Below are positions 6,093 through 45,549 of a stretch of 64,000 nucleotides of DNA, in pieces (position 1 is the stretch's first letter; every line of letters starts with the position of its first letter). Under the pieces are notes generated by a model, which was not told the DNA's origin, did not search any database, and worked only from the letters and a program-made list of their open reading frames with translations. The stretch covers positions 612,092 through 676,091 of the forward strand of contig NZ_FMAE01000005.1 in assembly GCF_900094575.1 (NCBI RefSeq). The letters run 5' to 3'. Made by a program: the position numbers and the translations under genes. The stretch comes from Bradyrhizobium yuanmingense (GTDB taxonomy: Bacteria > Pseudomonadota > Alphaproteobacteria > Rhizobiales > Xanthobacteraceae).

Positions 6093-7346
6093 ATGAAGCT
6101 CGCGCTTGCGCTGCCACCACCGCAACGTGATTTGCGTCTCGACCTGTTTCGCGGCCTCGCCAACTGGGCGATGTTTCTCGGCCATGTGCCCGGCACAGTG
6201 CTGGTGTGGTGTTCGTTCCGAAATTATGGATTCAGCGACGGGGCCGACCTGTTCGTGTTCATCTCCGGCTACACCTCGGCGCTCGTTTATACCCGAAAAA
6301 TGGAGCGAGGCTTTGTGTTCGGAACGAGCAGGCTCTTCAGGCGCGTATGGCAAATCTACACCGCCCATATCGTGCTATTCATGATCTACCTGGCTTTCAT
6401 CCATTTCCTGTCGGAGAGGTTCAACGCGCCTGATCTGATCGATCTGTTCAACGCCGGACCGGTCACCAGCGCGCCGATCGAGATGATGACGCAGGGGCTT
6501 TTGCTGCGATACAAGCCTCTGAATTTGGACGTGCTGCCGCTGTACGTCGTCTTGATGGGCCTGTTTCCTCCGATCCTCTGGTTGATGTTGAGATTTCCCG
6601 ACGCCGCCATGATCGGGTCGGTGCTGTTATATCTGGCTGCGCGGCAATTCCATTGGAACCTGCCTTCCTATCCGTCGGGAAGCTGGTACTTCAATCCGCT
6701 GGCGTGGCAGCTTCTGTTTGTTACGGGCGCATGGCTCGCGTTGACCGGTGCGGGGCGTCTGCATTTCTTGCTGCGGTCCAGGTTCGTGCTGGTTGTTGCG
6801 GTTGCCTATTTGATTTTTGCGGCGATCATGACGTTAGCTGCTCACCAGCCTCAGCTCCGGGCCTTGTTTGCGCCTGCCTTGTTCGAGCTTTTCAATCCCA
6901 ACGACAAGACCAATCTGGCGCCCTACCGCTATCTTCATTTGATGGTACTGATTATCCTTGGTGCCCGGTTCATACCGATCGATGCGCGCGGGCTACAAGC
7001 CACCATCTTGCGACCCCTGGTAAAGTGCGGCCAGCAGTCCCTCGAAGTGTTCTGTGTGGGCATTCTCCTGGCCTTCATCGGGTACTTCATCCTGCAGTTG
7101 GCAGGGAACGGCATCCTCGCTCAACTGCTCGTCGGAGCTGCGGGAATCGCGATCATGACGGCGGTTGCCTACTACAGATCCTGGTCAAAGCGAGTAGAGA
7201 AACCTTCACATGAGAGTCCGGTGGATGGAAAGAGGGCGCCGGAAAGCACCGGCCCCCTCGAGCATCTTGTAGTGCGCGCCGCCGGAACGGTGCCGCAGGT
7301 CGCTTGCGGGACGGGTACGCAGCAGCAGCCGTTAAGGGAAGTTTGA
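6093..7346 (+). CDS. OpgC domain-containing membrane protein
   Basis: Polytopic membrane protein of 417 residues resembling OpgC, the family that transfers succinyl groups to periplasmic glucans. The N-terminus RDLRLDLFRGLANW..GH followed by DGADLFVFISGY matches the family's start, with about ten hydrophobic segments after it. The last 50 residues are hydrophilic and look unrelated to the family. ATG at 6093 is preferred; an ATG at 6066 adds nine residues. Codon use and base composition are less GC-biased than in neighbouring core genes, and the gene lies exactly between two copies of a TetR 3' segment. Acquisition by transfer or duplication is likely. Confidence 0.78.
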   Translation: MKLALALPPPQRDLRLDLFRGLANWAMFLGHVPGTVLVWCSFRNYGFSDGADLFVFISGYTSALVYTRKMERGFVFGTSRLFRRVWQIYTAHIVLFMIYLAFIHFLSERFNAPDLIDLFNAGPVTSAPIEMMTQGLLLRYKPLNLDVLPLYVVLMGLFPPILWLMLRFPDAAMIGSVLLYLAARQFHWNLPSYPSGSWYFNPLAWQLLFVTGAWLALTGAGRLHFLLRSRFVLVVAVAYLIFAAIMTLAAHQPQLRALFAPALFELFNPNDKTNLAPYRYLHLMVLIILGARFIPIDARGLQATILRPLVKCGQQSLEVFCVGILLAFIGYFILQLAGNGILAQLLVGAAGIAIMTAVAYYRSWSKRVEKPSHESPVDGKRAPESTGPLEHLVVRAAGTVPQVACGTGTQQQPLREV

Positions 7347-7360
7347 CAACCGCGCCGGCC

Positions 7361-7674
7361 GTCAAGATCGCGATCGAGGCCCATTCCATCGACCCGAATC
7401 TGCACCGCGTCCTCGCCGAGCAGATCCCCCGCTCCGGCCACCTCGCCGAGGTCGAGGCCTACAGCCACGAAATCCACGCCCTCGTGCGCGCCTATCTCGA
7501 ACGTCACCGGAAGGAGATGCGCAAGCTCGACCCCGCGCTCGCAGCGTTCATGTGCGTGAGCACGATCGAAGCCATCGCGCACAACACGGCGCTGAACGCA
7601 GCCGAGATGCTGTCGGAGAAAATGGTGAAGGTGCTGGTGGACGAGACGACAAGGATGGTGGTGGGGTATTTGAG
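7361..7674 (+). pseudogene. Truncated second copy of the TetR 3' half
   Basis: These 314 bases repeat the 3' half of the TetR gene (5410-5720) with roughly nine bases in ten identical and one added codon (GCAGCC for GGA). The reading frame is kept, but the helix-turn-helix half is absent and the frame runs on past the old stop into unrelated sequence. It begins 15 bases after the OpgC-like stop. Without the DNA-binding domain it cannot be a normal regulator; a translated ligand-domain fragment remains possible. Confidence 0.8.
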
Positions 7675-8053
7675 CTGGGTGGGCGACAAGCCAGGGCACT
7701 TGCGATCTAGCTCCGCACGATGCTTCTTGAGCTTCGCATCTGGCCTGATGACGATCGCACTGCCCGCGTCCAAAGCTGATCGTATTTGCGCGACTCATCC
7801 TCCGCCGGGACGCGACCGCGTCAGTCGTCGCGCGGTAACTCGCCTCGCCAATTTAAATATTTATGCATATTTAATTTTGACAAATTAAATCATTATTATT
7901 TGAGGCCGGGCAGAACCGGAGCGTGGCCAATCTCAGTCAGGCACGCTCTTGCTCCGCGATGTCGGTATGTCATCACCGTTTTGCGCGTCTTGAGGAACGC
8001 GACCTCTGAGCTTGCATTGTCGGCTTGATCTTCAATCGTTCACGAGGTCGACA
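7675..8053. other. Non-coding stretch after the TetR fragment
   Basis: About 380 bases with no convincing gene. It contains a markedly AT-rich run near 7850-7900 that may include the promoter of the RlpA-like gene. No terminator or RNA gene was identified. Confidence 0.4.
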
Positions 8054-8560
8054 ATGCATCTTCTCGTCAGAATGGCGGCGATTGCGACAGTCCCTGCTTG
8101 GATCGGATTGAACGCGAACGGCGCTGCAGCACAGGATTTCCATGACCGGTGGTCCATCATTCCGAAGGCTCAGGCAGAGCCGGCGCCTGCTGGACCCGAA
8201 CAGCCGAAGAAGGATCAGATTGAGGCGCCACCTCCAACCGCACAAGAGCCATCGGCTGATCGCTCGGGCATGCGATCTTTCAATCGAGTCTTTTCGGGAA
8301 AGGCCTCCTATTATTCATATTCCAAAGGCAAGACAGCGAGCGGTTCGACATTCAATCGGAATCACCTCACGGCGGCGCATCGCAGCCTGCCGTTCGGCAC
8401 CAAGGTCCGCGTGACCCATGGAGGAAGCAGCGTCATCGTCACCATCAACGACAGAGGCCCGTTCATTCGTGGCCGCGTCCTCGATCTCTCGCTCGCTGCC
8501 GCGCGCAGCTTGGGGATTACGAATCGCGGCGTAGCTCAGGTTCGTGCCGAGGTGTTGTAG
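8054..8560 (+). CDS. RlpA-like septal ring lytic transglycosylase family protein
   Basis: Exported protein of 168 residues with an N-terminal signal peptide ending near ANGAAAQ. A proline-rich linker (about 35-75) leads to the double-psi beta-barrel typical of RlpA: GKASYYS, TASGSTFN, LPFGTKVRVTH, and VTINDRGPF at the C-terminal half, containing the catalytic-type Asp. RlpA cleaves peptidoglycan strands lacking stem peptides and acts at the septum. There is no lipobox and no SPOR domain, so this is a short soluble version. The ATG at 8054 has GAGG just upstream. Confidence 0.85.
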   Translation: MHLLVRMAAIATVPAWIGLNANGAAAQDFHDRWSIIPKAQAEPAPAGPEQPKKDQIEAPPPTAQEPSADRSGMRSFNRVFSGKASYYSYSKGKTASGSTFNRNHLTAAHRSLPFGTKVRVTHGGSSVIVTINDRGPFIRGRVLDLSLAAARSLGITNRGVAQVRAEVL

Positions 8561-8640
8561 CGGGCGGCTTTTGAACGGCCGTGACATTGAAAACCCGACG
8601 CGTTTGTGGATATGACCTCGAGTACTCACCGCCTTCAACG

Positions 8641-8665
8641 GGATGGCGATGGGGTATTTGAGGTA
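8641..8665 (+). repeat. Short remnant of the TetR 3' end
   Basis: Twenty-five bases matching the last codons and stop region of the TetR gene (around 5699-5723) with two mismatches. It lies downstream of the RlpA-like gene and has no coding role that can be seen. Confidence 0.55.
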
Positions 8666-8760
8666 TCAGCGCTTGTGCCTTTTGGGGAAGCCGGCGGAAG
8701 CCTCGCAGAATAACAAGTAGTCCCGCAACGCCGATCATGTCGGCGGGCAGACGAAGGTCG

Positions 8761-9252
8761 TCAGGCTTCCTTCTTCTTCACGCTGATATTTCCGTCGCCC
8801 TCGATATATGCCTCTACGACGTCCGAGGGACTCGCTATCCCCTCCTCGCGAAGCTTGCTCATCAACTCATCCATCGTCACCAGCTCCTGCCGCATGTGGC
8901 GGCGAAGGACCTGCCCGTTTTTGATGAGCAGGAGCGGCGCCGGCCGAGCAAGCCGCTCCACGAAAGGCACGTGATACCCGACCCAGTCGATGGCTAGATT
9001 CCAGAAAATGATGGTGGCAACGAGCACGATACCTTCTGTGATCGAGTGGTATTCGCCCGCCATGCCATTCTGCGCCGCGTCCGCCAACAGGACGACGAGA
9101 AGCAAATCGGGAATGCTGAGTCCGCCGGTTTGTCGCTTCAAAATGAACCGCATCAGGGTGAAGATGCCGAGATACATGATGGTGCCCCGCACGATCATTT
9201 CCATGATGGAATGCGTCGGGACGAAGATCTCGTTCCACGATAGCTGAAACAT
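8761..9252 (-). CDS. DUF421 (YetF-like) membrane protein
   Basis: A 163-residue protein with three hydrophobic segments in the first 95 residues followed by the cytosolic DUF421 domain: PLLLIKNGQVLRRHM and MTMDELMSKLREEGI-type sequence, as in YetF/YkjA-like proteins. The function of this family is not established. The C-terminal tail is charged (VKKKEA). ATG at 9252 was chosen over one five codons earlier. It stands alone between the RlpA-like gene and the outer-membrane protein gene. Confidence 0.82.
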   Translation of the reverse strand: MFQLSWNEIFVPTHSIMEMIVRGTIMYLGIFTLMRFILKRQTGGLSIPDLLLVVLLADAAQNGMAGEYHSITEGIVLVATIIFWNLAIDWVGYHVPFVERLARPAPLLLIKNGQVLRRHMRQELVTMDELMSKLREEGIASPSDVVEAYIEGDGNISVKKKEA

Positions 9253-9370
9253 GTGTTGCCCTCGCACCTAAATGGAAGCGTCCTGATACCACGTATCGAT
9301 GGTCCGCTATGAGGCGGCTGATCGTAGCGTCTTCTGGGAGGCTCAACCGTACTGGCGTGATGGCACGGAG

Positions 9371-9414
9371 ATGGTGCGGACGCTGGTGGACGAGACGACG
9401 CGGGTATTTGAGGT
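9371..9414 (+). repeat. Second short remnant of the TetR 3' end
   Basis: About 44 bases resembling the last 55-60 bases of the TetR gene, with an internal deletion. Translated in the old frame it still reads MVRTLVDETTR, against MVKVLVDETTR in the intact gene. It lies between the DUF421 gene and the outer-membrane protein gene. Confidence 0.65.
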
Positions 9415-9448
9415 CGGTGGGCCCTTAGGGCACGATCTGCTCAAAAGG

Positions 9449-10324
9449 TCAAAAATGATAGTTCACGCCGACTCGGGCGACGTGGAAATCCGCCCGGCCG
9501 AAATTTGCGGTGTATCTGGACAAGTTCGGACCAATACCCGTTGCGAGTGCGTTGGCCGTCACTGACGATTTGCCGAGGTCAACGTAGAGATATTCGGCCC
9601 TGAAGCTCCAACCAGGCGCAAAGCGCCATTCACCGCCTCCGCCGACCGTCCAGCCAGTCTGAATGCGGGAATCGTTCCCCGTGAAGCAAGTCGATCCGAT
9701 CGTACAGCTGAATGAAGTGCCGGCGACGGAGACACTCAAAGCGCCCCCCGGTCCGTTCACGATGTAGTCGTCAAATGTCGCTACTCGACCAAAAGCAAAG
9801 CCGCCGGTCCCATACAGAAGAACGCTAGGCGTGACCAGCGCCCCCAGACGACCACGAACGCTCCCCCACCAGTCAATCTTTTGCTCAGCCGAGATGGTCT
9901 GTGCGAAGGCTGGGGGTAGAATCGGCGTTGTTTCACGACCGCCGCCGCGCAAGCTGGATGCGCTCAAGTCAGCTTCCACGCCGACTAACCACTTGCTATC
10001 GAGTTGCCAATTGTAGCCGGCTTGCAAGCCTCCCGTTACACCACTCATCGAAAAATCGTGAGGGCCGGGAGCAACCTGCCCCGCAAAAGGAGGCAGAATC
10101 GGAACTCCAGGATTGAAGATGAAAGCGGTGGCCGCGTCACTCGTAAAATTGACGGACCGGTCTGCCCATGCGCCGCCAACGTTGCCGCCAGCATAAAATC
10201 CCGTCCAGCTTGGGCTGGAGTCAGCCGTGCGCGCTTTCGTGAAAAGTGCAGGGCTTTGGTCAGCAGCTTCCGCCCCCGAAGCGACACTCGCCAAGACTGC
10301 TACAGCAGCCAGTGCTCTTCTCAC
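9449..10324 (-). CDS. Outer membrane beta-barrel protein (Omp25/RopB-like)
   Basis: Outer-membrane protein of 291 residues. A signal peptide (MRRALAAVAVLASVASGAEA) precedes a mature part opening with WTGFYAGGNVGGAW, the hallmark of rhizobial/Brucella Omp25-Omp31 type barrels. Alternating hydrophobic strands follow, and the protein ends in phenylalanine (GVNYHF), the usual signal for BAM-assisted insertion. A GGAGGGGT ribosome-binding site lies just upstream of the start. Such proteins structure the outer membrane; porin activity is possible. Single-gene unit. Confidence 0.88.
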   Translation of the reverse strand: MRRALAAVAVLASVASGAEAADQSPALFTKARTADSSPSWTGFYAGGNVGGAWADRSVNFTSDAATAFIFNPGVPILPPFAGQVAPGPHDFSMSGVTGGLQAGYNWQLDSKWLVGVEADLSASSLRGGGRETTPILPPAFAQTISAEQKIDWWGSVRGRLGALVTPSVLLYGTGGFAFGRVATFDDYIVNGPGGALSVSVAGTSFSCTIGSTCFTGNDSRIQTGWTVGGGGEWRFAPGWSFRAEYLYVDLGKSSVTANALATGIGPNLSRYTANFGRADFHVARVGVNYHF

Positions 10325-10488
10325 GGGACACCCCTCCGCGATTCCAAAGTGCCCAAAATTCTTAAATCATGTTGACACTGGATGGTGTGACGCGAGGGCA
10401 ACACCTGCGGAACGTTGCAAAATCAACCGCAAACGGCCGGCCCGCGGTCAACCGACGGCCCGGAAAGGAATTCCGTTCTTGAGGAATT

Positions 10489-10566
10489 TGGTCGGAGCGA
10501 GAGGATTTGAACCTCCGACCCCTAGTCTCCCAGACTAGTGCGCTAACCGGGCTGCGCCACGCTCCG
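10489..10566 (-). tRNA. tRNA-Pro (anticodon GGG)
   Basis: A complete cloverleaf can be drawn on the minus strand. The acceptor CGGAGCG pairs with CGCTCCG, followed by A and an encoded CCA. The anticodon stem CTAGT/ACTAG carries the loop CTGGGAG with GGG at positions 34-36, and the T arm contains GGTTCGAATCC. It reads proline codons CCC/CCU. It lies downstream of the MerR-type gene on the same strand. Confidence 0.95.
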
Positions 10567-10674
10567 AATGCCGTTCCATTAGCTAGGATCGCCGCTTTGC
10601 GCAAGGCGAGGCCGCAGCATTTTGGTGTATCCGCCCAAAGCTCCCGGAACTGCCCCGCAAAGCCGGGGACCGCC

Positions 10675-11250
10675 CTAGCCCTCCTTCAGGGCCTGATCCA
10701 GCATCTCGCGGCAGGCGATGAGGTCGCCGAGGACCCGCTCCAGCCGCTCGCGGTCGAGCGCGCTGGGGCCGGCGGGCACGGCGGCGCCGCCTTTGCGGAA
10801 GGTGGTGAGGATCTCCTCGTCGTCGACCTCGGTGAAGCGGAAGTCGATGCCTTCCTCTTCATCGCCCTGATAGTCGTCATCGTCGGTGTCGGTGATGCCC
10901 TTGATGGGGGCCTCGTCCTCGGGCTCCATCAGGCTCGCGCCGATGGCGTCCTCGATGGCGCCAAAGGAGACCGCGGCCGCGCTGTCGGCGAGGCCCTGCA
11001 CCGATTTGACGCCGTGCTCTTTCAGGATCCGCTGCACCCCGCGGATGGTATAGCCTTCGCCGTAGAGCAGCCGGCGGATGCCTTTGAGCAGGTCGACGTC
11101 GTCGGGGCGATAATAGCGGCGGCCGCCGCTGCGCTTCATCGGCTTGATCTGGGAGAAGCGGGTCTCCCAGAACCGCAGCACGTGCTGCGGAATGTCGAGT
11201 TCCTGCGCTACTTCGCTGATGGTTCGGAACGCATCCGGCGCCTTGTCCAA
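10675..11250 (-). CDS. MerR family transcriptional regulator
   Basis: A 191-residue protein with an N-terminal MerR-type winged helix: [25 protein letters not shown], then [14 protein letters not shown]. The C-terminal half is acidic, with no metal-binding cysteine pair of the classical MerR kind. It lies 24 bases after ihfA and is the last gene of the plsX-fabH-ihfA-merR group conserved in alphaproteobacteria. Targets are unknown; this constant companion of ihfA is probably a core regulator rather than a metal sensor. Confidence 0.88.
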
Positions 11251-33645: not shown

Positions 33646-34905
33646 CTAACCCGCCAGATAGCGCTCGTAGCTGCCCCTGACCGGCTCGCTCGCGTCGACT
33701 TCCGGATCGAGCGTGTAGAGATCCTGCGCGCGGCCGATGCCGCGCAGCGCGTAGCGGCCGGTGGAGACGAGATAGCGGCGGCCGGCGGCATCTAGGCCCT
33801 TGTAGAATTCGGACGAGGCCAAGAGCTCGCGATCCACCGAGCGGCTCATCGAGGCGATGCGGCTGACCTCGTTGACGGTCGGGCCGACCACGGTGAAATC
33901 AAGCCGGTCCTCGCTGCCGATATTGCCGTAGAAGACCTCGCCGACATGCAGGCCGATATAGGCTGACGTGGTCGGACGGCCCTCCGCCGCCCGCCGTTCG
34001 TTCAGCGCAGCGACATTCTTGCGGAACAGGTGCTCGGCGCGGAGCGCGGCCCGCCGCGCATCCGCCATGTCCTCGCCCCAGAACATCGCGAGCACGCCGT
34101 CGCCGATCAGCTTCAGTACGTCGCCGCCGGCTTCGTGGATCGGATCGATCACGGCCTGCGCATAGTCGTTGAGGAACGGGATGATCTCGTCGGGACCGAT
34201 GCTCTCGCTGATGCCGGTCGAGCCGCGCAGGTCCGAATACCAAAGCACGGCATTGATGCGCTCGGTGACGCCGCGCGAGATGCGCCCGCGCAGCACCTGC
34301 TCGGAGGCGTCGCGGCCGAGATAGACCCGGCCGAGCGTGCGCGCGATGTCGACCTGCTGCGCCGACTTGATCGCGAGCCCCAACACCGGAACCAGATCGC
34401 GCAGCGCTTCCAGCTCCAGTCCGGAGAACCCGCTCGCGCGGCGGGTGGTCCAGCAGGAATAGAGGCAATCCATCAGGCCAAGCGCGCCGTTCTCGCCGAA
34501 GCGGTGGACGAAGGCGAGATAGTGCTTGTGGCCCTTCTCGGCGAGCTCGCCGATCTGCGAGAAATCCATCGACGGCGCATCGGCGAGATCGATCACCATC
34601 TCGTCGTGGCCATTCTCGAGCATGTGGAAGAACACCGAGCGGCGCCAGCTCTTGGCGGCGTCGCCGTCGGCGGTCGAGCCGTATTCGAAGGCATCGCTCT
34701 CGTTGCTGGGACGATCGCTCCAGCGGAAGCCGCGGCCTTCATAGATCGGATGCAGCGTGTCGATGACGACGAGGCCACGCGACAGTTCCAGCCCCTCGGC
34801 GCAGCAACGCTCGCAAAAGCCGCGGAGCAGTTCAATTTCAGGCAGGCCCGTGAGCCCCTGGCCGGTCAGCCAGTTCATCAGCGTAAGGCGCGAGGTCAAT
34901 TGCAT
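33646..34905 (-). CDS. Adenylate/guanylate cyclase domain protein
   Basis: A 419-residue protein with a C-terminal class III nucleotidyl cyclase domain. Metal-binding aspartates appear in YSDLRGST and IGDGVLAMF; FTVVGPTVNEVSRIAS carries the expected Asn and Arg. The catalytic set looks complete. The N-terminal 200 residues (LMNWLTGQGLTGLPEIELLRG at the start) form an uncharacterised sensory-type domain without membrane segments. Both are known in Bradyrhizobium, where such cyclases are highly expanded. Convergent with the MFS gene. Confidence 0.85.
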   Translation of the reverse strand: MQLTSRLTLMNWLTGQGLTGLPEIELLRGFCERCCAEGLELSRGLVVIDTLHPIYEGRGFRWSDRPSNESDAFEYGSTADGDAAKSWRRSVFFHMLENGHDEMVIDLADAPSMDFSQIGELAEKGHKHYLAFVHRFGENGALGLMDCLYSCWTTRRASGFSGLELEALRDLVPVLGLAIKSAQQVDIARTLGRVYLGRDASEQVLRGRISRGVTERINAVLWYSDLRGSTGISESIGPDEIIPFLNDYAQAVIDPIHEAGGDVLKLIGDGVLAMFWGEDMADARRAALRAEHLFRKNVAALNERRAAEGRPTTSAYIGLHVGEVFYGNIGSEDRLDFTVVGPTVNEVSRIASMSRSVDRELLASSEFYKGLDAAGRRYLVSTGRYALRGIGRAQDLYTLDPEVDASEPVRGSYERYLAG

Positions 34906-36450: not shown

Positions 36451-36850
36451 GCCACCTTCGACTCGCTGGTCGCAATCCCGATGCCGGCGAACACCGCGAC
36501 CAGCCCGGCCAGAAGATTGGGTTTGATCGGCTCGCCGATCAGCAGCGCCGCCAAGCGGCGGCGATCGGATTGACCGTCATCGTATTGGCGACCCGGGTCG
36601 GCGTCGCCCGCGCCAGCGCCATGACCCAGAGGATGAAGGCGAGCGCGCCGCCGCCGATGCCGAGATAAACGCCGGCAACCCATTGCGCCGCCGTGAAGCG
36701 CTCGAGCGCTGCAAAGCTGCCCTTCACCAACCCCGCCAGCACCAGCACGACGGCGAGCCTGTCGGCGATCTTCTGCATCGAGGCCGGCGGCGGCCGGATT
36801 GACGCTTGCCCCGATCGGATGCCCTTCCAGCTGGCGCGCTCTTCGCCCAC
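36447..36850 (-). pseudogene. Broken EamA/DMT-family transporter gene
   Basis: The C-terminal EamA half is recognisable in two frames: AALERFTAAQWVAGVYLGIGGGALAF..NTMTVNPIAA in one frame, then ALLIGEPIKPNLLAGLVAVFAGIGIATSE to the stop in another. The shift occurs near 36550. The N-terminal half is missing: sequence of another kind takes over near 36850, where the protease gene ends. It is therefore both frameshifted and truncated, and marks an old insertion or deletion boundary. Confidence 0.75.
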
Positions 36851-36851
36851 A

Positions 36852-38852
36852 TCACGGCGGATAGAGATCGCCATCACCTCGCTTCTCGTCCGGAGGGCTG
36901 GCTGGAGCATCGTGCACCGTCAACGGTCGCCGATCCGCAACCAATCGCGCCAGCTGCGGCGCGGCGGCGCTGGTACCGATGAGCCGAAACACCACGCCGC
37001 TTCGATTGCCCCCGGCACGTACACCCTGCAGAGCATCTGACTCGTCGCAGAACAGCGCATAGTCGGGACCAACTCGCCGCGGGAGCGGCCCGGTTCGTAC
37101 GGGGCCCGCCGACGAATAAGGCGACTTGCGTTTCGGCGCCGACAGAATGTAGCCGCCGGCCACCTGCACACCCGCGACGCTGTCCGTACCGATCCCGTTG
37201 AGGGTGCCCAGGCGAGAAACAAGCGAGCCGGTCTTGTCAAATTCCCCACCGGCATACGTGCAGCCGGCCTCGGCCGCGCGGCCCGCCTCCCATCCGGCGT
37301 CGATGAAGTACGAACGCTTCGCACCCGTGCGCATGTTCATGTTCGGATCGGTACGTGCCACATAGGCATGAACCTCGCTCCCCAACTCGATGCCCTCCAC
37401 CTTGATCTTCCAATTCCCATGCTCGGGCACCATGCCGGCTCCCGCGATGGTGGGCTCGACCGCAATCAGCCACACCCTATTGTCACCCCAGTCAACGGGG
37501 GCATACGCACCGGTATAGGGCGGAAGCGCCGGTGCAGCGGGCGGCGGGGGTGGGGGACCGGGAGGCGCTGGACCGGCAGTCGACGAGGAGCTACGACCGC
37601 CGGGCGAGGTGAGCGTAACAATGACATTGTCCGTGCAGTTCTTCTTCATCCAGACTTCGGCAAAGCAGAGCACGGTATTGTCGGGGGGAAGGCGCCACGT
37701 CCATTCGACATGGTCGGGCTCTGCCATGGTTTGCCTGACGAAATGGATGTGCCCATCGCTCAGATAGTTGTTGCCGGCAGGCAGGAAGACGTCGAGCTTT
37801 GGACTTACGGAAACGCCGTCATAGTGGGTGACAAGCTCCCTCAGCTTGCCCTCGAGCTCCGACGTGCCGTTGTGAGGTCCGGTTGTCGGCCCGTAGCTGA
37901 CATTGATCACCACGTTCGTTGTGCCAGAATCGACAAATGACATGATGTAATCGACTGCATCGGCGACGTAACCCTTCAGCCAGACGCCGGTCGCGTCACG
38001 AAGGCAGCTCTCGGGAAACTGCACGAACACGATATCTGCTTCGCAAGCGGGATCGGTCAGGGGATCTCCGGGCTGCCAACTTGGCGGATCGCGGCGCGCG
38101 ATGCGTGCCGAGAGCGGAATGCGTCCGGCGAGGACATCCATTACATGTGCACCATGCGAGGCCTGATGCTTGAGGGTCTTGAAACCTCCACGCGCGTAGC
38201 AGCCATCCTCGTCGATCGTGTTTGCCCTCTTGTGCAACTGGATCCAGTCGTTGAGCCCAACCACGCCGGATATGGAGTCTCGAAGGAACTCGAGGCCGTA
38301 ATTGAAATCGAACGGCTTCTCGCCAAAGACGTCGGCACCTACCGGGATCGGGACTCGGCCTGCGTGCTCGTTCTGATCCCAGACACCGCGCACGCGTGTC
38401 CCGGATGCGACACCCGCGATCCTTTTGACAAACTGAGCGGCCGCGAACGGACAGCCATCGTCGATCACGCCGATGAGGAGAGGTGTCGGTGGTTGTTCGC
38501 TCGCGGACCTGTTGCGCTGCGCACCCTTTTGTATGGCCGTCGGCTTCAACGGGAGGGACAGCTCGACCCGGGATACGTTGTCGTCCCACGCCCGGAAACT
38601 GTCCTTCTCGACAGCCCTTATGTAAGCCCGCATGGTCAGATATCGCGAGTTCGGGCTGGTCAGCCCGAATTCGGCGCCGAAGTCACTAGGACTCATGGCT
38701 CTCACAAAATTATCGGCCAGCCCGGCGTGCTTAAGCTCCACGAACAGAAATAGCTTGGACTCCTGCTCGTCGAAAAAATCGAAGTTCTTAAATTCGCTCG
38801 CGATTGCGTACCGGAGGTACGGGTCGAAGCATCTCGGCAATTCCTCGGCCAT
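36852..38852 (-). CDS. Subtilisin-like serine protease (S8 family), large cytosolic
   Basis: A 666-residue S8 protease. The triad is complete: Asp131 in GVIDDG, His233 in SHGAHV, Ser628 in GTSAAAP; Asn361 (PAGNN) is the oxyanion residue. Between Asn361 and the Ser is a 260-residue insertion with a proline-rich linker (about 427-446) and a beta-rich segment ending WKIKVEG that recalls the P-domains of convertases. There is no signal peptide; the first 125 residues form an unknown N-terminal domain. Last gene of a tight three-gene unit. Target and activation unknown. Confidence 0.85.
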   Translation of the reverse strand: MAEELPRCFDPYLRYAIASEFKNFDFFDEQESKLFLFVELKHAGLADNFVRAMSPSDFGAEFGLTSPNSRYLTMRAYIRAVEKDSFRAWDDNVSRVELSLPLKPTAIQKGAQRNRSASEQPPTPLLIGVIDDGCPFAAAQFVKRIAGVASGTRVRGVWDQNEHAGRVPIPVGADVFGEKPFDFNYGLEFLRDSISGVVGLNDWIQLHKRANTIDEDGCYARGGFKTLKHQASHGAHVMDVLAGRIPLSARIARRDPPSWQPGDPLTDPACEADIVFVQFPESCLRDATGVWLKGYVADAVDYIMSFVDSGTTNVVINVSYGPTTGPHNGTSELEGKLRELVTHYDGVSVSPKLDVFLPAGNNYLSDGHIHFVRQTMAEPDHVEWTWRLPPDNTVLCFAEVWMKKNCTDNVIVTLTSPGGRSSSSTAGPAPPGPPPPPPAAPALPPYTGAYAPVDWGDNRVWLIAVEPTIAGAGMVPEHGNWKIKVEGIELGSEVHAYVARTDPNMNMRTGAKRSYFIDAGWEAGRAAEAGCTYAGGEFDKTGSLVSRLGTLNGIGTDSVAGVQVAGGYILSAPKRKSPYSSAGPVRTGPLPRRVGPDYALFCDESDALQGVRAGGNRSGVVFRLIGTSAAAPQLARLVADRRPLTVHDAPASPPDEKRGDGDLYPP

Positions 38853-38888
38853 GGAATGCTCTCCACTTCGGTTGCAGGGACGTGTTTC

Positions 38889-40034
38889 CTACGGAAATCT
38901 TGTCGAAACTTCGTAGTAGGCCTTGTCCCATAGTTCCTTCATCAGGAGGGACTGCGTAACAGTCCCTCCTGTGGTTTCCGAATAGAACTTGTTGGCATTG
39001 AGCGCCTGGTCAGCATGGAAGGGATTGAAATCCGTGCGAGAGTTACTGTCGGCGTGGCTGGCGTTGAATTTGCGGCTCTTGGTTGCCGTGCTCCCGAGAC
39101 AACGGCCGACGAAGTACTCGCCCAAGGCGATACCCAGCATCCGCCCTGCCATGCTGTCGACTGGAAAATGGACTCCGGCCACGACCCGATTGGTTGCGAT
39201 TCGTGCGGCCTGCCGGTCGAGCTGCTCGACGATCTCCGGGAATCCGGATGTCGTCTTGTGCAGGCTCAATAGCCGTTTCAGCACGTAGGCTACCGCGTAA
39301 GCCTGCGTCGCATGTCCGCTCGGGAAACTTCCGTGTCCCGGCGTCGTGATCATCGGCTGAACCTGGGCGTTGTATTCCACGGGACGCGAGCACCCCAGCG
39401 CATGCTTGAAGCGCATTTCCACGTAAACGCAGAATTGCAGGACCATGTTGATGAGCTCGAATGTCCGCCTGGTCCTCTCGGGATGCAGGTAGACGATCGA
39501 GGACCAGAAGGCATACTGGGGATCGATCTGCGCCATGATTTCTGTGGCGCGTTCGTTGCGCAGCTCGGCCCAGCTCACGACCATCTCAATCTGGTCTTGA
39601 AACGTCGATTGGACCGGACGCCCTATCTCCGCAATCACGTATGCGGACGAGCGAACCAGGAATGCGTTCGGATCGGCGCCCGACACCTGAAGGGTGATGC
39701 CCTGCAGCATCTCCCCGACCGCTGTGTAGGCGCGCACCCACGGCTCCCAGCGATCCAATTGGGCTGGGTCTTCGATCGCCGGCAAGGCCGGCGCGTAGTA
39801 GTAAAAATACGGAGAGGTCGGTCGCTCCGGAACAACGATTGTCCCTTCGCGAGCGTGGATGAGTGCATCCACCATGATGGGATTGGCCCAGACGTCGCCG
39901 AGTGTGCCAATTATCGCCCCACCGGCCCCTCCAGCGCCGCCCGCTCCGCCTGCACCTCCTGCCCCCCCTGCGCCGCCGGCTCCGCCAGCACCACCTGCGC
40001 CGCCTGCTCCTCCCGCCCCGCCTAGTTGAGCCAT
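38889..40034 (-). CDS. PAP2/vanadium-haloperoxidase-like protein with Gly-Gly-Ala repeat
   Basis: A 381-residue protein. Residues 5-40 are twelve Gly-Gly-Ala triplets. The rest has the PAP2 phosphatase/vanadium haloperoxidase motifs: K-x6-RP (Lys210, Arg217), PSGH (238-241), and NR-x5-H-x3-D (282-293), with Asn in place of the usual Ser. No signal peptide or transmembrane helix is evident, so it resembles soluble vanadium haloperoxidases or acid phosphatases more than membrane lipid phosphatases. It is 39 bases after the cyclase gene and 36 before the protease gene. Confidence 0.82.
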   Translation of the reverse strand: MAQLGGAGGAGGAGGAGGAGGAGGAGGAGGAGGAGGAGGAIIGTLGDVWANPIMVDALIHAREGTIVVPERPTSPYFYYYAPALPAIEDPAQLDRWEPWVRAYTAVGEMLQGITLQVSGADPNAFLVRSSAYVIAEIGRPVQSTFQDQIEMVVSWAELRNERATEIMAQIDPQYAFWSSIVYLHPERTRRTFELINMVLQFCVYVEMRFKHALGCSRPVEYNAQVQPMITTPGHGSFPSGHATQAYAVAYVLKRLLSLHKTTSGFPEIVEQLDRQAARIATNRVVAGVHFPVDSMAGRMLGIALGEYFVGRCLGSTATKSRKFNASHADSNSRTDFNPFHADQALNANKFYSETTGGTVTQSLLMKELWDKAYYEVSTRFP

Positions 40035-40073
40035 TGCCTGCCTCCTTATGAAAACAAGTCGGTATGAGGTTAG

Positions 40074-41906
40074 TCAGCCTGTCGTCGGTAGTCCTGCCAC
40101 TTCGAGGCAGCGAGCCCAGTGCCTGCCTGTTTCGAGATGCGCATTGGGGAGGCGCCCGATGTATCGATCTAGGGTCAAATGCGGCTCGAGCTCGCACATC
40201 TTGCCCAAGGCTTCGCGGGCCTCCGCGACCCGTCCCTGCGAAACGAGTGCGATAGCGAGGACCCGCCACGTAGACGGATGCATGCGATTGAGAATGAGAG
40301 ATGAGCGCGCGAGCTCTTCCGCCTCGTCGTATCGATGCGCCGATAGAAGCGCCGTGGCGCCCAGGGACTCGAAATAATACCGCTGCGGATCGAGCGGGGA
40401 GAGTTTCAGAGCGCGCCGCGTTGCGTCCACGGCTGCCTCGCCGTCGCCTTTGAAGGCGTCGACGGTGCCCCGGTAGAGCCAGCCCAACGCGTGGCTGGGG
40501 TTGGCATCGACGGCCTGCTCGCACCGCTTTCGGGCAGCGTCCAGGTCCTTCAACATGTGACAATAGACGAAGCCTTCGGTCGCAAGCGCAAGCGCGTCGG
40601 ACGGGTCACGGTCGAGCGCCGCGCGAGTGGCGCTCAAGGCCTCGGCGGCCTCGCGTTTGCGGTCCTCGGACCAGCCGCGCGTCATGCGCAGGATGTACCA
40701 GTTGGCGAGCCAGGCGCGCGGGGCAGCTATTCGGCCGTGGCGATTGATCAGTTCCTCCAGCACCGTCCGGGTCTGGAGAAACTCCTCCCTGCTCGACCGG
40801 TGCATCAGGCGGATGCTGCCAAGCAGCAGCGAGTAGCTTTCTAGCGTCGGTAACGGCTGGGTCAGGATATGCTCGACCTCGGCATCGAAGACCGACAGAT
40901 GCACTGCAGCGGCGATGCGGTGAGCCAGTTCGCTCTCCGGCTGCAGCAGATCGCCGATATTGCCGCTCAGGCGGTCGGTCCAGACGACTTGATTGGTTCG
41001 CGCCGCGGACAGCTCCGCCGTCACCAGAATCCGGTCCGCATCGACCACATAGCTGCCGCTGAGAATGTAGGTGGCACCGAGATGCGCCGATACTTCCGCC
41101 ACATCGCTGACCCTGCCGCGAAATATGTTGGTCGACAGACGCGAGATCACCTTGAGGTTCGCCGATCTGGAGAGGCACCAGATCACGCTGTCCGCGATCA
41201 GGTTACCAACGTCGAGATGCTCCTCCGCGTCCTTGCGCGCGTCGAAGGGGATGACGGCGATCGTCGGCTCCATGGGAGTTCCATAGTCTCGCCGAGCTGC
41301 GAGGCTTGGGTGTGGACTGGCCGGACCAACGCGGTAGGCGCGAACCGGCTTGTCAAAGTGCTTGAGGATACAGTCGCCCAAATCTTCGCACAGCGCATCC
41401 ACTCCGTGCGTCAGCTCGTCGCGCGCCGCAGCGCTGCCAATCGTCTCCCCCGGACTGGCCAGGCTGGCAAGAGCTGTCGCCAGTTGCTCATGCGCGGCCT
41501 CGCTGGCGATGGTTTCACCGGGACCGGCAAGAGTTGCGAGCCGGGCTGCGAGGTTGATGCCGGTGCCATAGATGTCAGTGCCGTCACTCCAGGCGGTGGA
41601 GGAGTTGATCCCCGCACGAAGCTGGAAGTGTTGATCTTCAGGCCGCCCGGTGTTCTGAACGGCGATACTCCGGTGCATTTCGGCGGCGGCATTGACGGCG
41701 TCACGCACGGATTCGAAGCGGGCCATGAGCCCGTCTCCGAGGCTCTTCACGAGGCCGCCGCGATAACGCGGCAGAATTTGGCCGGTGGCAAGTTGGACGA
41801 AGTCGGTCCATCGACGCACCGCGGACGCCTCATGCTCCCGCATCAGACGCACGGACTCGACGAGGTCGACCAAGAGGACCACGGTGTCCTGCTGCACGAG
41901 GCCCAT
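40074..41906 (-). CDS. Class III adenylyl cyclase with TolB-like and TPR regions
   Basis: A 610-residue cytosolic protein. Residues 1-165 hold a cyclase domain with metal Asp14 (VDLVES), Asp58 (LGDGLMARF), Lys54, and DIYGTGINLAARL with Asn118 and Arg122: predicted active. Residues about 220-345 are a TolB/FlgO-like domain (TIAVIPFDA.., ILSGSYVVDADRILVTAEL). Then come TPR-like repeats to residue 600. The linker after the cyclase contains a 23-residue tandem duplication (about 123-168). First gene of a three-gene unit. This architecture is common in Bradyrhizobium; the fused neighbours are not. Confidence 0.88.
   Translation of the reverse strand: MGLVQQDTVVLLVDLVESVRLMREHEASAVRRWTDFVQLATGQILPRYRGGLVKSLGDGLMARFESVRDAVNAAAEMHRSIAVQNTGRPEDQHFQLRAGINSSTAWSDGTDIYGTGINLAARLATLAGPGETIASEAAHEQLATALASLASPGETIGSAAARDELTHGVDALCEDLGDCILKHFDKPVRAYRVGPASPHPSLAARRDYGTPMEPTIAVIPFDARKDAEEHLDVGNLIADSVIWCLSRSANLKVISRLSTNIFRGRVSDVAEVSAHLGATYILSGSYVVDADRILVTAELSAARTNQVVWTDRLSGNIGDLLQPESELAHRIAAAVHLSVFDAEVEHILTQPLPTLESYSLLLGSIRLMHRSSREEFLQTRTVLEELINRHGRIAAPRAWLANWYILRMTRGWSEDRKREAAEALSATRAALDRDPSDALALATEGFVYCHMLKDLDAARKRCEQAVDANPSHALGWLYRGTVDAFKGDGEAAVDATRRALKLSPLDPQRYYFESLGATALLSAHRYDEAEELARSSLILNRMHPSTWRVLAIALVSQGRVAEAREALGKMCELEPHLTLDRYIGRLPNAHLETGRHWARCLEVAGLPTTG
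41403..41540. repeat. Tandem 69-base duplication inside the cyclase gene
   Basis: Two adjacent segments encode LATLAGPGETIASEAAHEQ and LASLASPGETIGSAAARDE, 23 residues apart. They are diverged at the DNA level but plainly related, indicating an old in-frame duplication in the loop after the cyclase core. Confidence 0.8.
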
Positions 41907-42194: not shown

Positions 42195-43154
42195 CTAATG
42201 CGGGCAGGTCTCGACCTCGACCGTGACGTGGCTGAGGCCCTTCAGCCCGGCGAGCCGCCGCTTGTAGACGGCCGGCTGCTTCGGCTTGTCCGACACCACC
42301 GAGAGCAGCACGGCACAATGGCCGGGGCCGACCTGCCAGAGATGCAGGTCGGTGACGCGATCCTCACCGACCTCCATGCGGGCGCGGATCACCCGCTCCA
42401 GCTTCTCGTCGGCGCGCACGTCGAGCAGCACCGCACCCGATGATTTGATCAGGCCGAATGCCCAGCTCGCGATCACGGCGCTGCCGATCAGACCCACCGC
42501 CGGGTCGGCCCAGACCCAGCCGGAATACATGGCAAGGCCGAGCGCTGCGATCGCCAGCACCGAGGTTGCGGCATCGGTCATGACATGGACATAGGCCGCG
42601 CGGAGGTTGTTGTCGTGCTGATGGTGGTGATGATCGCGCTCGTGGTCATGCTCGGCGTGGTCATCATGCGCATGGCCATGGCCGTGGTGATGATCGTGGC
42701 TGTCGCGCAGCAGCCACACGCTGGCGAGATTGACGCCCAAGCCGAGAGCAGCCACGGCCATGGCCTCGCCGTAGACGATCGGCACCGGATTGATCAAGCG
42801 CAGCACGCTCTCATAGGCGATCTCGACCGCGATCAGGCCGAGGATGATCGCGCTGGCGAAGGCGGCAAGATCGCCGAACTTGCCGGTGCCGAAGGTGAAA
42901 TGCGCATTCCCCAGATGCCGCCGCGCGAAGCGATAGGCGAAGGCGGCAATGCCGAGCGCCGCCGCATGGGTGCCCATGTGCCAGCCGTCGGCGAGCAGCG
43001 CCATCGAACCGAACAGCGAGCCGGCGACGATCTCGCCGACCATCATGACCAGCGTCAGCACGACCACGAACCAGGTGCGGCGCTCGTTGTCGTCGTGCTT
43101 CTCGCCCAGGAAGGCGTGGTCATGGGTCCATTGTTCGATGGAATGGGAATGCAT
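42195..43154 (-). CDS. dmeF: CDF family Co/Ni efflux transporter DmeF-like
   Basis: Cation diffusion facilitator of 319 residues exporting divalent metals by proton antiport. The start SHSIEQWTHDHAFLGEKHDDNERRTW is characteristic of DmeF. The metal site ALLADGWHMGTHAAA is in helix 2; a histidine-rich loop (HDHHHGHGHAHDD..HDHERDHHHH) sits between helices 4 and 5, and the C-terminal domain follows. Six helices in total. It is divergent from chrB, with about 190 bases between starts. Confidence 0.86.
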   Translation of the reverse strand: MHSHSIEQWTHDHAFLGEKHDDNERRTWFVVVLTLVMMVGEIVAGSLFGSMALLADGWHMGTHAAALGIAAFAYRFARRHLGNAHFTFGTGKFGDLAAFASAIILGLIAVEIAYESVLRLINPVPIVYGEAMAVAALGLGVNLASVWLLRDSHDHHHGHGHAHDDHAEHDHERDHHHHQHDNNLRAAYVHVMTDAATSVLAIAALGLAMYSGWVWADPAVGLIGSAVIASWAFGLIKSSGAVLLDVRADEKLERVIRARMEVGEDRVTDLHLWQVGPGHCAVLLSVVSDKPKQPAVYKRRLAGLKGLSHVTVEVETCPH

Positions 43155-43348
43155 CGAATTCTCCAGAAGATTCAGCTCTGTTGGCCTCCAATATAGACGG
43201 CAGGCACCAATTTTCTAAGGACCAATCGTCCCGCGGATTGACAGTGCTTCTTAGTTTCGCTGTAATCTGCGCCATGGGGATTTGAGCGATCTCCCCACGA
43301 GGCGACAGGCCCAAGCATCGCGTCCCGTTTGGTTCTCGAGGACGCATC

Positions 43349-44167
43349 ATGTCTACATTCACGACCATCTCATCCGACAAAATGGCACGGCTGATCGGCA
43401 CGGCGAATGCGCCTGTTCTGATCGATGTGCGCACCGAGCAGGATTTCGCCGCCGACCGGCGGCTGATTCCCGGCTCCATCAAGCTCGGCCACGACAACGT
43501 GGCGGACTGGGGCGGCGCCTTCGCCGGCCGCCGCGCCGTAGTCTCCTGCCTCCGCGGCGAGAAGCTCGCGCAAGGCACCGCGGCCTGGTTACGCCAGCTC
43601 GGCGCGCAGGCCGAAACGCTGGAGGGCGGCTTCGAGGGCTGGAAGGCGGCCCAGCTGCCGCTGGTCGACGCCCGCAAGCTGCCGCCGCGGGATGCCAAGG
43701 GGCGCACCGTCTGGGTGACGCGGGCGCGGCCGAAGGTCGACCGCATCGCCTGCCCGTGGCTGATCCGCCGCTTCGTCGATCCGGACGCAGTGTTCCTCTA
43801 TGTCGCGCCGTCCGAGGTGGTCGCCGTCGGCGAGCGGTTCGGCGCAGCGCCCTTCGACATCGAGAACGTGTTCTGGAGCCACCGCGGCGAGCTCTGCACC
43901 TTCGACGTGATGATCGAGGAGTTCGGCATCGCGACTCCGCCCCTGCTGCGCCTCGCGACGCTGGTGCGCGGCGCCGACACCGCGCGACCCGACCTCGCGC
44001 CGGAGGCGCCCGGCCTGCTCGCGGCCTCGCTCGGGCTGTCGCGCATGTATGACGACGACCTCGAGCAGCTCGAGGCCGGCATGCTGCTCTATGATGCCTT
44101 CTACCGCTGGTGCCGCGACGCCACCACCGAGACTCACAACTGGCCGACCAACAAGGTGAAGGCGTAA
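43349..44167 (+). CDS. chrB: Chromate resistance protein ChrB, rhodanese-ChrB fusion
   Basis: A 272-residue protein. Residues 10-105 are a rhodanese-like domain: the catalytic cysteine is in VVSCLRGEK. Residues from about 115 match the chromate-resistance exported/regulator domain (VWVTRARPKVDRIACPWLIRRFVDP). It probably works with chromate transport, as a sensor or reductant. The stop overlaps the chrA start (TAATG). Confidence 0.86.
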   Translation: MSTFTTISSDKMARLIGTANAPVLIDVRTEQDFAADRRLIPGSIKLGHDNVADWGGAFAGRRAVVSCLRGEKLAQGTAAWLRQLGAQAETLEGGFEGWKAAQLPLVDARKLPPRDAKGRTVWVTRARPKVDRIACPWLIRRFVDPDAVFLYVAPSEVVAVGERFGAAPFDIENVFWSHRGELCTFDVMIEEFGIATPPLLRLATLVRGADTARPDLAPEAPGLLAASLGLSRMYDDDLEQLEAGMLLYDAFYRWCRDATTETHNWPTNKVKA

Positions 44168-45549
44168 TGGACGTTCGCGCCGATCAAGCGGGAGCTGGTG
44201 CCGGTCACGGCATCAGCTTCAACGAAGCTTTCCGCGTCTGGCTCCGTGTCGCCTGCCTGAGCTTTGGCGGGCCCGCGGGCCAGATCGCGGTGATGCACCG
44301 CATCCTGGTCGAGGAGAAGAAGTGGATCTCCGAAGGCCGTTTCCTGCACGCACTGAACTATTGCATGCTGCTGCCGGGACCTGAGGCGCAGCAGCTCGCG
44401 ACCTATGTCGGCTGGCTTATGCATCGCACCGCCGGCGGGCTGATGGCGGGCGGGCTGTTCATCCTGCCCGGCATCATCGCCATCATGGGCCTCAGCTACA
44501 TCTATGCCGCCTTCGGCAATGTCAGCTTCGTCGAGGCGCTGTTCTTCGGGCTCAAGGCGGCCGTGCTCGCCATCGTCGTCGAGGCGGTAGTGCGCGTCGG
44601 CAAGCGCGCGCTGAAGAACCGCATCATGATCGCGCTCGCGGCCGCGGCCTTCGTCGCGATCTTCTTCTTCGCGGTCCCCTTCCCGATCATAATCATCGCC
44701 GCCGGCCTCATCGGTTATGCCGGCGCCCGAAGCGGCCGTCCGGAATTCGCGCCGGCCGGTCACGCCCATGGCGGCGGCGCTGCGATCGACAGCATGCTCG
44801 GCGAGGCCGTGCCCGATCACGTCCGGCCCAACACGGCGCGCGCGATCCGCGTCGGTGCACTGTGGCTGGCGCTTTGGCTGGTGCCGGTGATCGCACTGCT
44901 GATGGCCCTGGGTCAGGCCAATGTGTTCAGCCAGATCGCGCTGTTCTTCTCGAAGATGGCGCTGGTTACGTTCGGCGGCGCCTATGCGGTGCTGGCCTAT
45001 GTCGCCCAGCAGGCGGTCGAGCATTATCATTGGCTCAAGCCGCATGAGATGCTCGACGGTCTCGGCATGGCCGAGACCACGCCGGGCCCGCTGATCATGG
45101 TGCTGCAATTCGTGGGCTTCATGGCGGCCTATCGCGACCCTAGCGGCCTGTCGCCGATGCTCGCGGCCACGCTCGGCGGCCTGCTCGCGACCTGGGTTAC
45201 CTTCATGCCCTGCTTCCTCTGGATTTTCGTCGGCGCGCCCTACATCGAGCGCCTGCGCGGCAACGCGGGCCTCGCCGGCGCGCTCAGCGCGATCACCGCC
45301 GCCGTGGTCGGCGTGATCCTCAACCTGTCGATTTGGTTCGCGCTGCACATCCTGTTCCGCGAGACCGTGCCGGTGCATGCGTTTCCGCTGAACTTCGACA
45401 TGCCGGTGCTGAGGAGCGTCGACGTGCCGGCGCTGGTGCTGGCGATCGCGGCGGCCACCGCGATCTTCCGGTTCAAGCTCGGCATGCTGACGGTGCTGGC
45501 GGGCAGCTGCGCGGCGGGCGTGGCGTTGCGGATGGCCGGGATGATCTGA
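44167..45549 (+). CDS. chrA: Chromate transporter ChrA
   Basis: Inner membrane chromate/sulfate antiporter of 460 residues, built from two homologous CHR domains. First domain: FRVWLRVACLSFGGPAGQIAVMHRILVEE; second: FFSKMALVTFGGAYAVLAYVAQQAVEHYHW, with TPGPLIMVLQFVGF. About ten hydrophobic segments. The ATG at 44167 shares a base with the chrB stop, and chrB-chrA form a unit. Together with DmeF it makes a metal-resistance patch. Confidence 0.9.
   Translation: MDVRADQAGAGAGHGISFNEAFRVWLRVACLSFGGPAGQIAVMHRILVEEKKWISEGRFLHALNYCMLLPGPEAQQLATYVGWLMHRTAGGLMAGGLFILPGIIAIMGLSYIYAAFGNVSFVEALFFGLKAAVLAIVVEAVVRVGKRALKNRIMIALAAAAFVAIFFFAVPFPIIIIAAGLIGYAGARSGRPEFAPAGHAHGGGAAIDSMLGEAVPDHVRPNTARAIRVGALWLALWLVPVIALLMALGQANVFSQIALFFSKMALVTFGGAYAVLAYVAQQAVEHYHWLKPHEMLDGLGMAETTPGPLIMVLQFVGFMAAYRDPSGLSPMLAATLGGLLATWVTFMPCFLWIFVGAPYIERLRGNAGLAGALSAITAAVVGVILNLSIWFALHILFRETVPVHAFPLNFDMPVLRSVDVPALVLAIAAATAIFRFKLGMLTVLAGSCAAGVALRMAGMI

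Follow-up and report, generated by a model that had tools for sequence, protein, structure and literature searches.

A conserved, horizontally moving cassette of three genes was identified in Bradyrhizobium yuanmingense, on the minus strand at positions 36852-41906 of a 64,000-nucleotide stretch of DNA (NCBI RefSeq assembly GCF_900094575.1, contig NZ_FMAE01000005.1, forward-strand positions 612,092 to 676,091; the whole stretch is referred to here as the window). In agreement with a first-pass annotation of this DNA, which had described three minus-strand genes with gaps of 36-39 bases, the open reading frames (ORFs) encode a class III-type cyclase (slot 1, 610 amino acids), a PAP2-type enzyme (slot 2, 381 amino acids) and an S8-like protease (slot 3, 666 amino acids), separated by 39 bp (cyclase to PAP2) and 36 bp (PAP2 to protease) according to ORF coordinates. 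Comparative analysis revealed a three-gene unit with intact catalytic residues, exchange of the protease, exchange of the regulator and conserved arrays of a short peptide unit near the N-terminus of the PAP2 protein. We tentatively propose, at a little short of even confidence, that a sensor controls the operon and that its dedicated protease trims a disordered tail from a soluble enzyme resembling acid phosphatases. Text searches of the open-access literature, with subscription papers and preprints outside their reach, found no description of a cyclase-PAP2-protease set, and within that literature this unit of many Alpha- and Betaproteobacteria seems to be undescribed.

Linkage and distribution of the three genes

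A scan of all genomes gave at least 484 confirmed relatives, from which the best 80 matches were taken, a choice that favours S8 cassettes like that of the window. All three slots, defined by profile detection within 1.5 kb and including some genes in pieces (L135), were found side by side in 74 of these best 80 matches, and the other six were cut by contig ends. Slot 1 was a same-strand cyclase in 70 of the 74 complete loci and a divergently oriented variant in 4. The co-occurrence across genomes that the first-pass annotation had proposed to look for is therefore well documented, and the unrelated phylogenies that it named as a possible counter-finding were not observed. Protein distances correlated between cyclase and PAP2 (0.853), PAP2 and S8 protease (0.894) and cyclase and S8 protease (0.751), whereas the maximum of 500 permutations was 0.124 (78 loci with a cyclase-type slot 1, from 88 non-redundant of 93 loci). 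Duplicate records among the loci are L109/L060, L110/L061, L118/L065, L131/L064 and L143/L066.

Within a genus sample, 20 of 146 genomes had a protease match, and 19 of these 20 also matched PAP2 strongly, with E no higher than 8e-45. The 18 S8-type loci fetched from the genus have PAP2 adjoining the protease with a slot-1 gene beside it, two loci being contig-cut inside a gene, and the twentieth genome (G040) encodes a distant S8 protein with no PAP2 nearby (locus L072). Profile matches at E ≤1e-20 were recovered from 25/297 genomes of an order sample and 24/398 of a phylum sample (the samples overlap), with a slot-1 gene beside PAP2 in 25 of 28 order-sample loci and 16 of 19 further phylum-sample loci. 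Hosts by record title include Bradyrhizobium, Microvirga, Methylobacterium, Tardiphaga, Variovorax, Polaromonas, Hydrogenophaga, Paraburkholderia and Caballeronia, among others.

The cassette occupies unrelated sites: beside dmeF (window, L054, L056), at a MaoC-like/obgE site (L061-L063, L065) and behind an MFS gene (L057, L058, L060). Among the 51 window genes of at least 150 amino acids, its genes account for three of the five lowest codon scores, and their GC content at third codon positions is 0.72-0.76 against a median of 0.86. PAP2 relatives were also found on 101 plasmid records, all at <60% identity; in 8 of 9 annotated plasmid regions with long flanks, a regulator or cyclase, PAP2 and S8 genes stand in a row, and in the ninth (L237) the first and third genes are split or shortened. 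Phage records yielded just one weak record for cassette relatives, viral contigs gave only PAP2-domain matches at ≤41% identity, and a single-sequence viral scan confirmed nothing; a phage origin was rejected on this basis. As a separate observation, both cassette orientations relative to the MaoC-like gene and obgE are seen at the obgE site (L062/L063/L065 versus L061 and L118).

This distribution bears on a possible anti-phage or abortive-infection function, in which infection would activate the cyclase, cyclic AMP (cAMP) or the regulator would induce the operon, and a phosphatase released by the protease would kill the cell. The patchy presence of the S8-type protease in the genus, the atypical codon use, the several insertion sites, the exchangeable effectors and the plasmid-borne relatives would all suit such a function, and a cytosolic phosphatase could be toxic. 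However, PADLOC has no model for the PAP2 protein or the protease and gave only weak PycC scores for the cyclase. The neighbourhood was likewise unrevealing: among 148 genes adjoining the cassette in 28 loci, the PADLOC model matched most often was mad3 (5 genes), and PycC had 2 matches, a count that covers 148 of 149 listed neighbours (one large L114 cyclase left out) and the first 25 of 42 matching families, with no background set. Single strong matches were PD-T4-6 (1e-82) and mad6 (1e-58). A defence island around the cassette was thus not established from this set, and near-absence from phage and viral sequences also argues against the scenario. A defence role is possible and fits the patchiness and mobility of the cassette; the anti-phage or abortive-infection scheme appears unlikely, and the "defence-like" label of the first-pass annotation was not sustained.

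The protease slot and its exchange

The window slot 3 protein (36852-38852, minus strand), which is without an obvious leader, had no Pfam match up to E 1, S8 included. It is an S8 protease, as the first-pass annotation had called it, on the evidence of residues, profile and model. Conservation in all three slots was assessed in alignments of chosen subsets (A2, A3 and A4, with 50, 45 and 45 rows). In the 45-sequence alignment of slot 3, D131, H233, N361 and S628, corresponding to the Asp-His-Ser triad and the oxyanion Asn, are invariant. A slot 3 profile searched against the PDB recovered germination proteases of the Csp type (best E 3.9e-29), and the structural model (predicted local distance difference test score, pLDDT, 84.6; predicted template modelling score, pTM, 0.90) matched CspB with Z 27.4 and a root-mean-square deviation of 2.9 over 399 residues, with Z 27 to CspA/CspB. 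Alignment with CspA/CspC runs from residue 33-34 to the end, the catalytic domain starting at 123. The protease is therefore probably a proenzyme, as judged from the model and this alignment, with an N-terminal prodomain at about residues 33-102 (38547-38756, minus strand; the exact limits are approximate, drawn from the Csp alignment).

Four classes of protein were found in slot 3: long Csp-like S8, shorter S8, glutamic A4/G1 and cysteine C70 peptidases. Near more distant PAP2 genes, the third gene is a Peptidase A4/G1 in 11 loci, a Peptidase C70 in 6 loci (one without upstream sequence) and a shorter S8 protease in L073, L101 and L204 (L204 by profile). These assignments rest on Pfam matches of representatives, the remaining members being placed by profiles built from them. 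Three A4/G1 representatives matched PF01828 with E 1.2e-21 to 8.5e-32 (93.2, 110.7 and 77.5 bits, cut-off 22.3), two C70 representatives matched PF12385 with 24.7 and 34.9 bits (cut-off 19), and PF00082 was detected in two short S8 representatives. The clearest case of exchange is a site between P450-TetR-MFS and ABC-transporter genes, which holds, in one orientation, an S8 cassette in L108 and a G1 cassette in L090 and L096; at the obgE site L073 carries cyclase and PAP2 genes with a short S8 gene on the opposite strand where L061-L063 have the long S8. Slot 3 thus accepts serine, glutamic or cysteine proteases. In each of the four classes, members occur with a repeat-tailed PAP2 protein, which would be expected were the tail the target of the proteases.

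Two further observations concern genes near these proteases. In three C70 cassettes a further gene of ~204-220 amino acids lies behind the protease (L093 3957-4571, L097 10116-10778, L092 6595-7257), and the L093 copy had no Pfam or NCBIfam match. In L072, the S8 protein at 6869-8674, with no PAP2 nearby, is CspBA-like (NCBIfam 4e-75), and a few kb away (214-2730) lies the gene for an 838-amino-acid protein whose start looks caspase-like by eye.

The PAP2 enzyme

Slot 2 (38889-40034, minus strand) encodes a soluble PAP2/acid-phosphatase-like enzyme. The window protein matched Pfam PAP2 with E 1.1e-10, and PF01569 was detected in 50/50 members of alignment A2, where K210, R217, H241, R283, H289 and D293 are invariant. 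These residues belong to the motifs K-x6-RP, PSGH and R-x5-H-x3-D of the catalytic region (residues 207-305; 39120-39416, minus strand), which are common to the whole superfamily including vanadium haloperoxidases. The model (mean pLDDT 83; the only stretch under 50 is residues 1-49, where the repeat lies) matched class A acid phosphatases such as PhoN and PhoC with Z 19 over ~200 residues, compared with Z 11-14 (about 13) for vanadium-dependent haloperoxidases, which share the superfamily and are longer. Of the first-pass description "PAP2/haloperoxidase-like", the PAP2 part therefore held and the haloperoxidase part is the less likely one: the modelled structure is less similar to haloperoxidases, and we infer a phosphatase.

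Class A acid phosphatases are secreted enzymes, of which a signal peptide is a defining feature. In the window protein the repeat begins at residue 5, and 87 of 123 arrays start ≤10 residues from the first possible start codon; as read from the sequence alone, there is therefore no room for a signal peptide. A long repeat-bearing N-terminal extension replaces it here, and the gene lies in an operon with a protease and a regulator. This sets a limit on the view that the cassette is an ordinary phosphate or stress operon, consisting of an acid phosphatase with a linker tail, a processing protease and a regulator, with export by an unfamiliar route. Such a view gains from the closest folds being those of secreted enzymes, but it conflicts with the position of the arrays, and a linker leaves homogeneous, switching units unexplained. 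We consider it very improbable.

Uniform but changeable repeat arrays at the PAP2 N-terminus

The Gly-Gly-Ala N-terminus noticed in the first-pass annotation consists of 12 perfect GGA copies (residues 5-40; 39915-40022, minus strand), predicted to be disordered. Arrays of four or more perfect copies, built from a short unit and placed close to the N-terminus, were found in 123 of 139 non-redundant PAP2 ORFs, with periods of 3 (99 arrays), 4 (16), 2 (6) and 1 (2) and a median of 9 copies. The 123 arrays are built from 52 different units, with glycine in 116; glycine-free units include DF, MT, NK and AQR, and DAR and QTQ occur in further loci. The 16 ORFs with a weak or missing array comprise miscalled starts (such as L102, where a GGY repeat is present), loci that are cut, arrays that are short (L136, L204) and distant PAP2 proteins, three of which (L205, L207 and L208) are without a slot-1 gene. 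As a control, none of 402 other called genes of at least 150 amino acids (40 loci) had an array of ≥4 copies of a 2-6-residue unit in the first 150 residues, a comparison of incomplete sensitivity, as the gene caller trims starts and kept the array in only 20 of 38 PAP2 genes.

The array peptide is uniform and its DNA mostly is not. Tandem Repeats Finder gave 73-79% DNA match between the GGA units of the window, and in 132 arrays, to which duplicate loci contribute some, variation at the third codon position was seen in 382 of 400 unit columns, at the first in 16 and at the second in 6, although arrays were picked by their longest perfect amino-acid run, which in part imposes invariance at positions 1 and 2. 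Synonymous codon identity between units was 0.344 against 0.368 expected (121 arrays, 38 of them above expectation), with 0.307 for neighbouring units and 0.394, above expectation, for units two apart. That DNA slippage alone produced the repeats was rejected on the variable third positions and the low synonymous identity; against this rejection, similarity is higher for units two apart and some arrays seem to have expanded recently. Traces of array growth are repeated two-unit blocks (L148, L156), successive copies of a single 12-bp unit (L170) and seven identical 12-bp units (L184).

The unit can switch in all copies between near relatives, but need not. In a Hydrogenophaga group, PAP2 cores that are 82-88% identical bear SGGA, SGGT, SGGI, SGGV or SGGL; close pairs generally share the unit (152/195 pairs at 60-80% core identity, 10/25 at 80-90%), and NK is constant across 12 alleles of Rhizobium, Neorhizobium, Phyllobacterium and Aliiroseovarius. 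The unit is thus free to change and yet uniform within each array, and selection for homogeneity without a fixed sequence is unusual. Among the loci fetched, of which some measure just 4 kb, no second ORF had three tandem copies of the unit, and the repeat as a tag shared with another protein of the locus was rejected. Different units were noticed in co-resident cassettes of one genome. In the region 8202-11648 of L094, the PAP2 protein contains 17 Met-Gly dipeptides.

One explanation for these properties is an arbitrary self-recognition code. The tail would bind itself or a matching partner only where units are identical, so that any uniform unit works, new units insulate the assembly of each cassette from others, the array assembles the phosphatase and the exchangeable protease dissolves or matures the assembly; the unit sequence would be arbitrary and its homogeneity selected. 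Perfect units despite synonymous identity near or below chance, the diversity of units with whole-array switches between close cores, and S8 motifs that do not track the unit (see below) are in line with this, and the absence of a second ORF with tandem copies points to self- rather than partner recognition. Yet the units are chemically very unlike (GGA, DF, MT, MG, NK, DAR) and no common self-assembling structure is obvious among them, the tail is disordered in the model, selecting arrays by their longest perfect run favours perfection, and DNA duplication contributes, as indicated by units two apart and a few recent expansions. We regard this code as rather doubtful; if true, bacteria would have a switch for signalling or effectors in which the homogeneity of the repeat counts, whatever its particular sequence.

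Homogeneity within an array together with divergence between lineages is also the look of peptide precursors. By this analogy, the protease could cut the tail into many copies of a private signal peptide, with the rest of the PAP2 protein acting as carrier or modifying enzyme. In two plasmids of Rhizobium, a gene for a HEXXH putative peptide-modification protein, a ThiF-type gene and an ORF of 65-66 amino acids come after the cassette, in L241 at 8205-10938 (with a CC in the small ORF) and in L242 at 7997-10598, behind PAP2-S8, a possible peptide-modification locus. These genes are absent, however, from the seven other annotated plasmid regions with long flanks, 29 loci is the most in which any neighbour family recurs, and the PAP2 active site is conserved, all of which makes peptide maturation a highly unlikely role.

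The putative sensor/regulator slot

The window slot 1 protein (40074-41906, minus strand) combines a class III adenylyl-cyclase domain (residues 8-145), a weak TolB/FlgO-like region (216-308) and TPR matches (408-576), in line with the first-pass annotation of an adenylyl cyclase with TolB-like/TPR regions. The Pfam match of the cyclase domain (E 6e-4, 19.8 bits) lies slightly under the curated cut-off of 21.9, and that of the relative in L093 reaches 31.9 bits. Class III cyclases use two metal-binding Asp, an adenine-selecting Asp and a transition-state Asn and Arg. The adenylyl cyclase set is present as D14, D58, D111, N118 and R122; D111 is invariant and the others are kept in at least 90% of 45 aligned proteins.

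In 10 non-redundant loci (including L064, L066, L067, L142 and L176) the TPR part is kept and an N-terminus resembling a winged helix-turn-helix replaces the cyclase; the variant gene is divergent from PAP2 in the loci read closely. Trans_reg_C was detected in two of three variants tested, both below cut-off (E 0.0016 and 0.0045), and annotated relatives are named SARP or winged-helix, some of them sharing the strand of PAP2. The variant N-terminus is a putative DNA-binding domain from its sequence, and because such a domain takes the place of the cyclase in some loci, the cyclase gene is probably a regulator. The first-pass reading of the cyclase is altered accordingly. The variants appear to share the architecture of HilA/SARP-type regulators, in which a winged helix-turn-helix precedes a TolB/TPR-like part; the window protein has a weak HilA/EilA match (NCBIfam, 2.9e-9) over its TolB/TPR part and differs in having the cyclase where the DNA-binding domain stands.

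In 29 loci a gene of the Crp type flanks the cassette, typically just past the protease (median distance from PAP2 2.0 kb); these genes form a loose cluster (20-100% identity) of which one member was checked by Pfam, and on a Roseibium plasmid such a gene precedes the cassette. CRP-like sites matching at least 8 of 10 positions were found 5' of the cyclase in 22/103 non-independent loci, compared with ~6.8 in mononucleotide shuffles, and the best site of the window matches 8 of 10 positions. This excess is a hint only, read from sequence motifs. A sigma-70 promoter scan found 0 sites, with 1.1 expected.

Proposed mechanism

In the sensor-controlled operon that we favour, slot 1 would be a cytosolic sensor through its TolB/TPR part, and its output would be either direct binding to DNA or cAMP from the class III cyclase, for which a Crp-type protein may be the reader; through this output it would control expression of the operon. 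The soluble PAP2 phosphatase would be kept inactive, or in an assembly, through its disordered repeat tail, and the protease, probably made as a proenzyme, would clip this tail so that the phosphatase is switched on or released. Both the tail as the protease's substrate and cAMP as the signal are inferred. Unrelated catalytic classes could fill slot 3, on this proposal, because the substrate would be an exposed repetitive tail.

The closest parallel is the clostridial pair of Csp proteases (CspB, CspBA, CspC) and their substrate SleC. CspB, the closest solved relative of slot 3, is required for the hydrolase SleC to be activated by proteolysis, and the CspB prodomain remains bound across the active site (PMC3567191). 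By its model, slot 3 appears to have the Csp-like subtilase fold, with an intact triad and a probable prodomain; its partner here is a PAP2 protein with a repeat tail instead of a cortex hydrolase, and the protease class is exchangeable. A Csp/SleC-like pair under a sensor is the most economical reading, one that would explain both the tail in all protease classes and the change of class.

Several points weigh against it. Cleavage alone leaves an identical variable residue in all copies unexplained, which homotypic assembly would explain. Proteases of the Hydrogenophaga group keep the S8 motif cores around the S1 wall and oxyanion hole unchanged while the variable residue of the unit is A, T, I, V or L. 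A third gene of the known classes was not detected within 1.5 kb in 10 non-redundant slot-1 loci, in part because loci end there, and L094 has a neighbour of an unfamiliar kind, encoded on the opposite strand, 822 amino acids long and with no Pfam match. An S1 pocket that reads the variable residue was looked for in the Hydrogenophaga group and not seen; the motif cores being constant across units, the protease seems not to read this residue. A cut beside the constant glycines would still fit unchanged S8 motifs. Natural experiments are at hand in near relatives with switched units and in one chromosomal site that holds different protease classes by strain.

Comparison with known conflict systems

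Pycsar combines a PycC cyclase with a transmembrane or TIR effector. The cassette resembles it in having a class III-type cyclase beside putative effectors, with a weak PADLOC PycC match for the cyclase (2.8e-5). It differs in that the cyclase is of the TolB/TPR kind with adenylyl-type residues and is swapped for a putative DNA-binding domain in some loci, and no PADLOC family was found up to E 0.1 for the window PAP2 or protease. The VMAP/MoxR conflict systems (Kaur et al., 2020; PMC7159879) show a similar mixing and matching of peptidase and cyclic-nucleotide cyclase domains, one replacing the other. VMAP, MoxR and effector-associated domains (EADs) were absent from the Pfam matches of the scanned cassette proteins, among which no search was aimed at them, and the terms "haloperoxidase", "acid phosphatase" and "pap2" do not occur in the text of PMC7159879.

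Neighbouring features of the window

Between the cyclase and PAP2 genes, the 39-base gap (40035-40073, minus strand) has AAGGAGG just 5' of the PAP2 ATG, and the 36-base gap between PAP2 and protease genes lies at 38853-38888 (minus strand). A short EamA-type transporter ORF (36539-36910, minus strand; Pfam below cut-off) overlaps the end of the protease gene; it may have been left behind where the cassette inserted. About 2 kb from the cassette lies another class III cyclase gene (33646-34905, minus strand), without TPR matches. Two genes at 6132-7888 (plus strand) are as atypical in codon use as the cassette and possibly form a second acquired segment. On the other side of the cassette, a DmeF-type Co/Ni exporter gene (42195-43154) adjoins a chrB-a cis-regulatory RNA (43271-43351, plus strand; Rfam, 77.5 bits) that stands directly 5' of chrB- and chrA-looking genes (43349-45549), so that a metal-resistance cluster lies next to the cassette.

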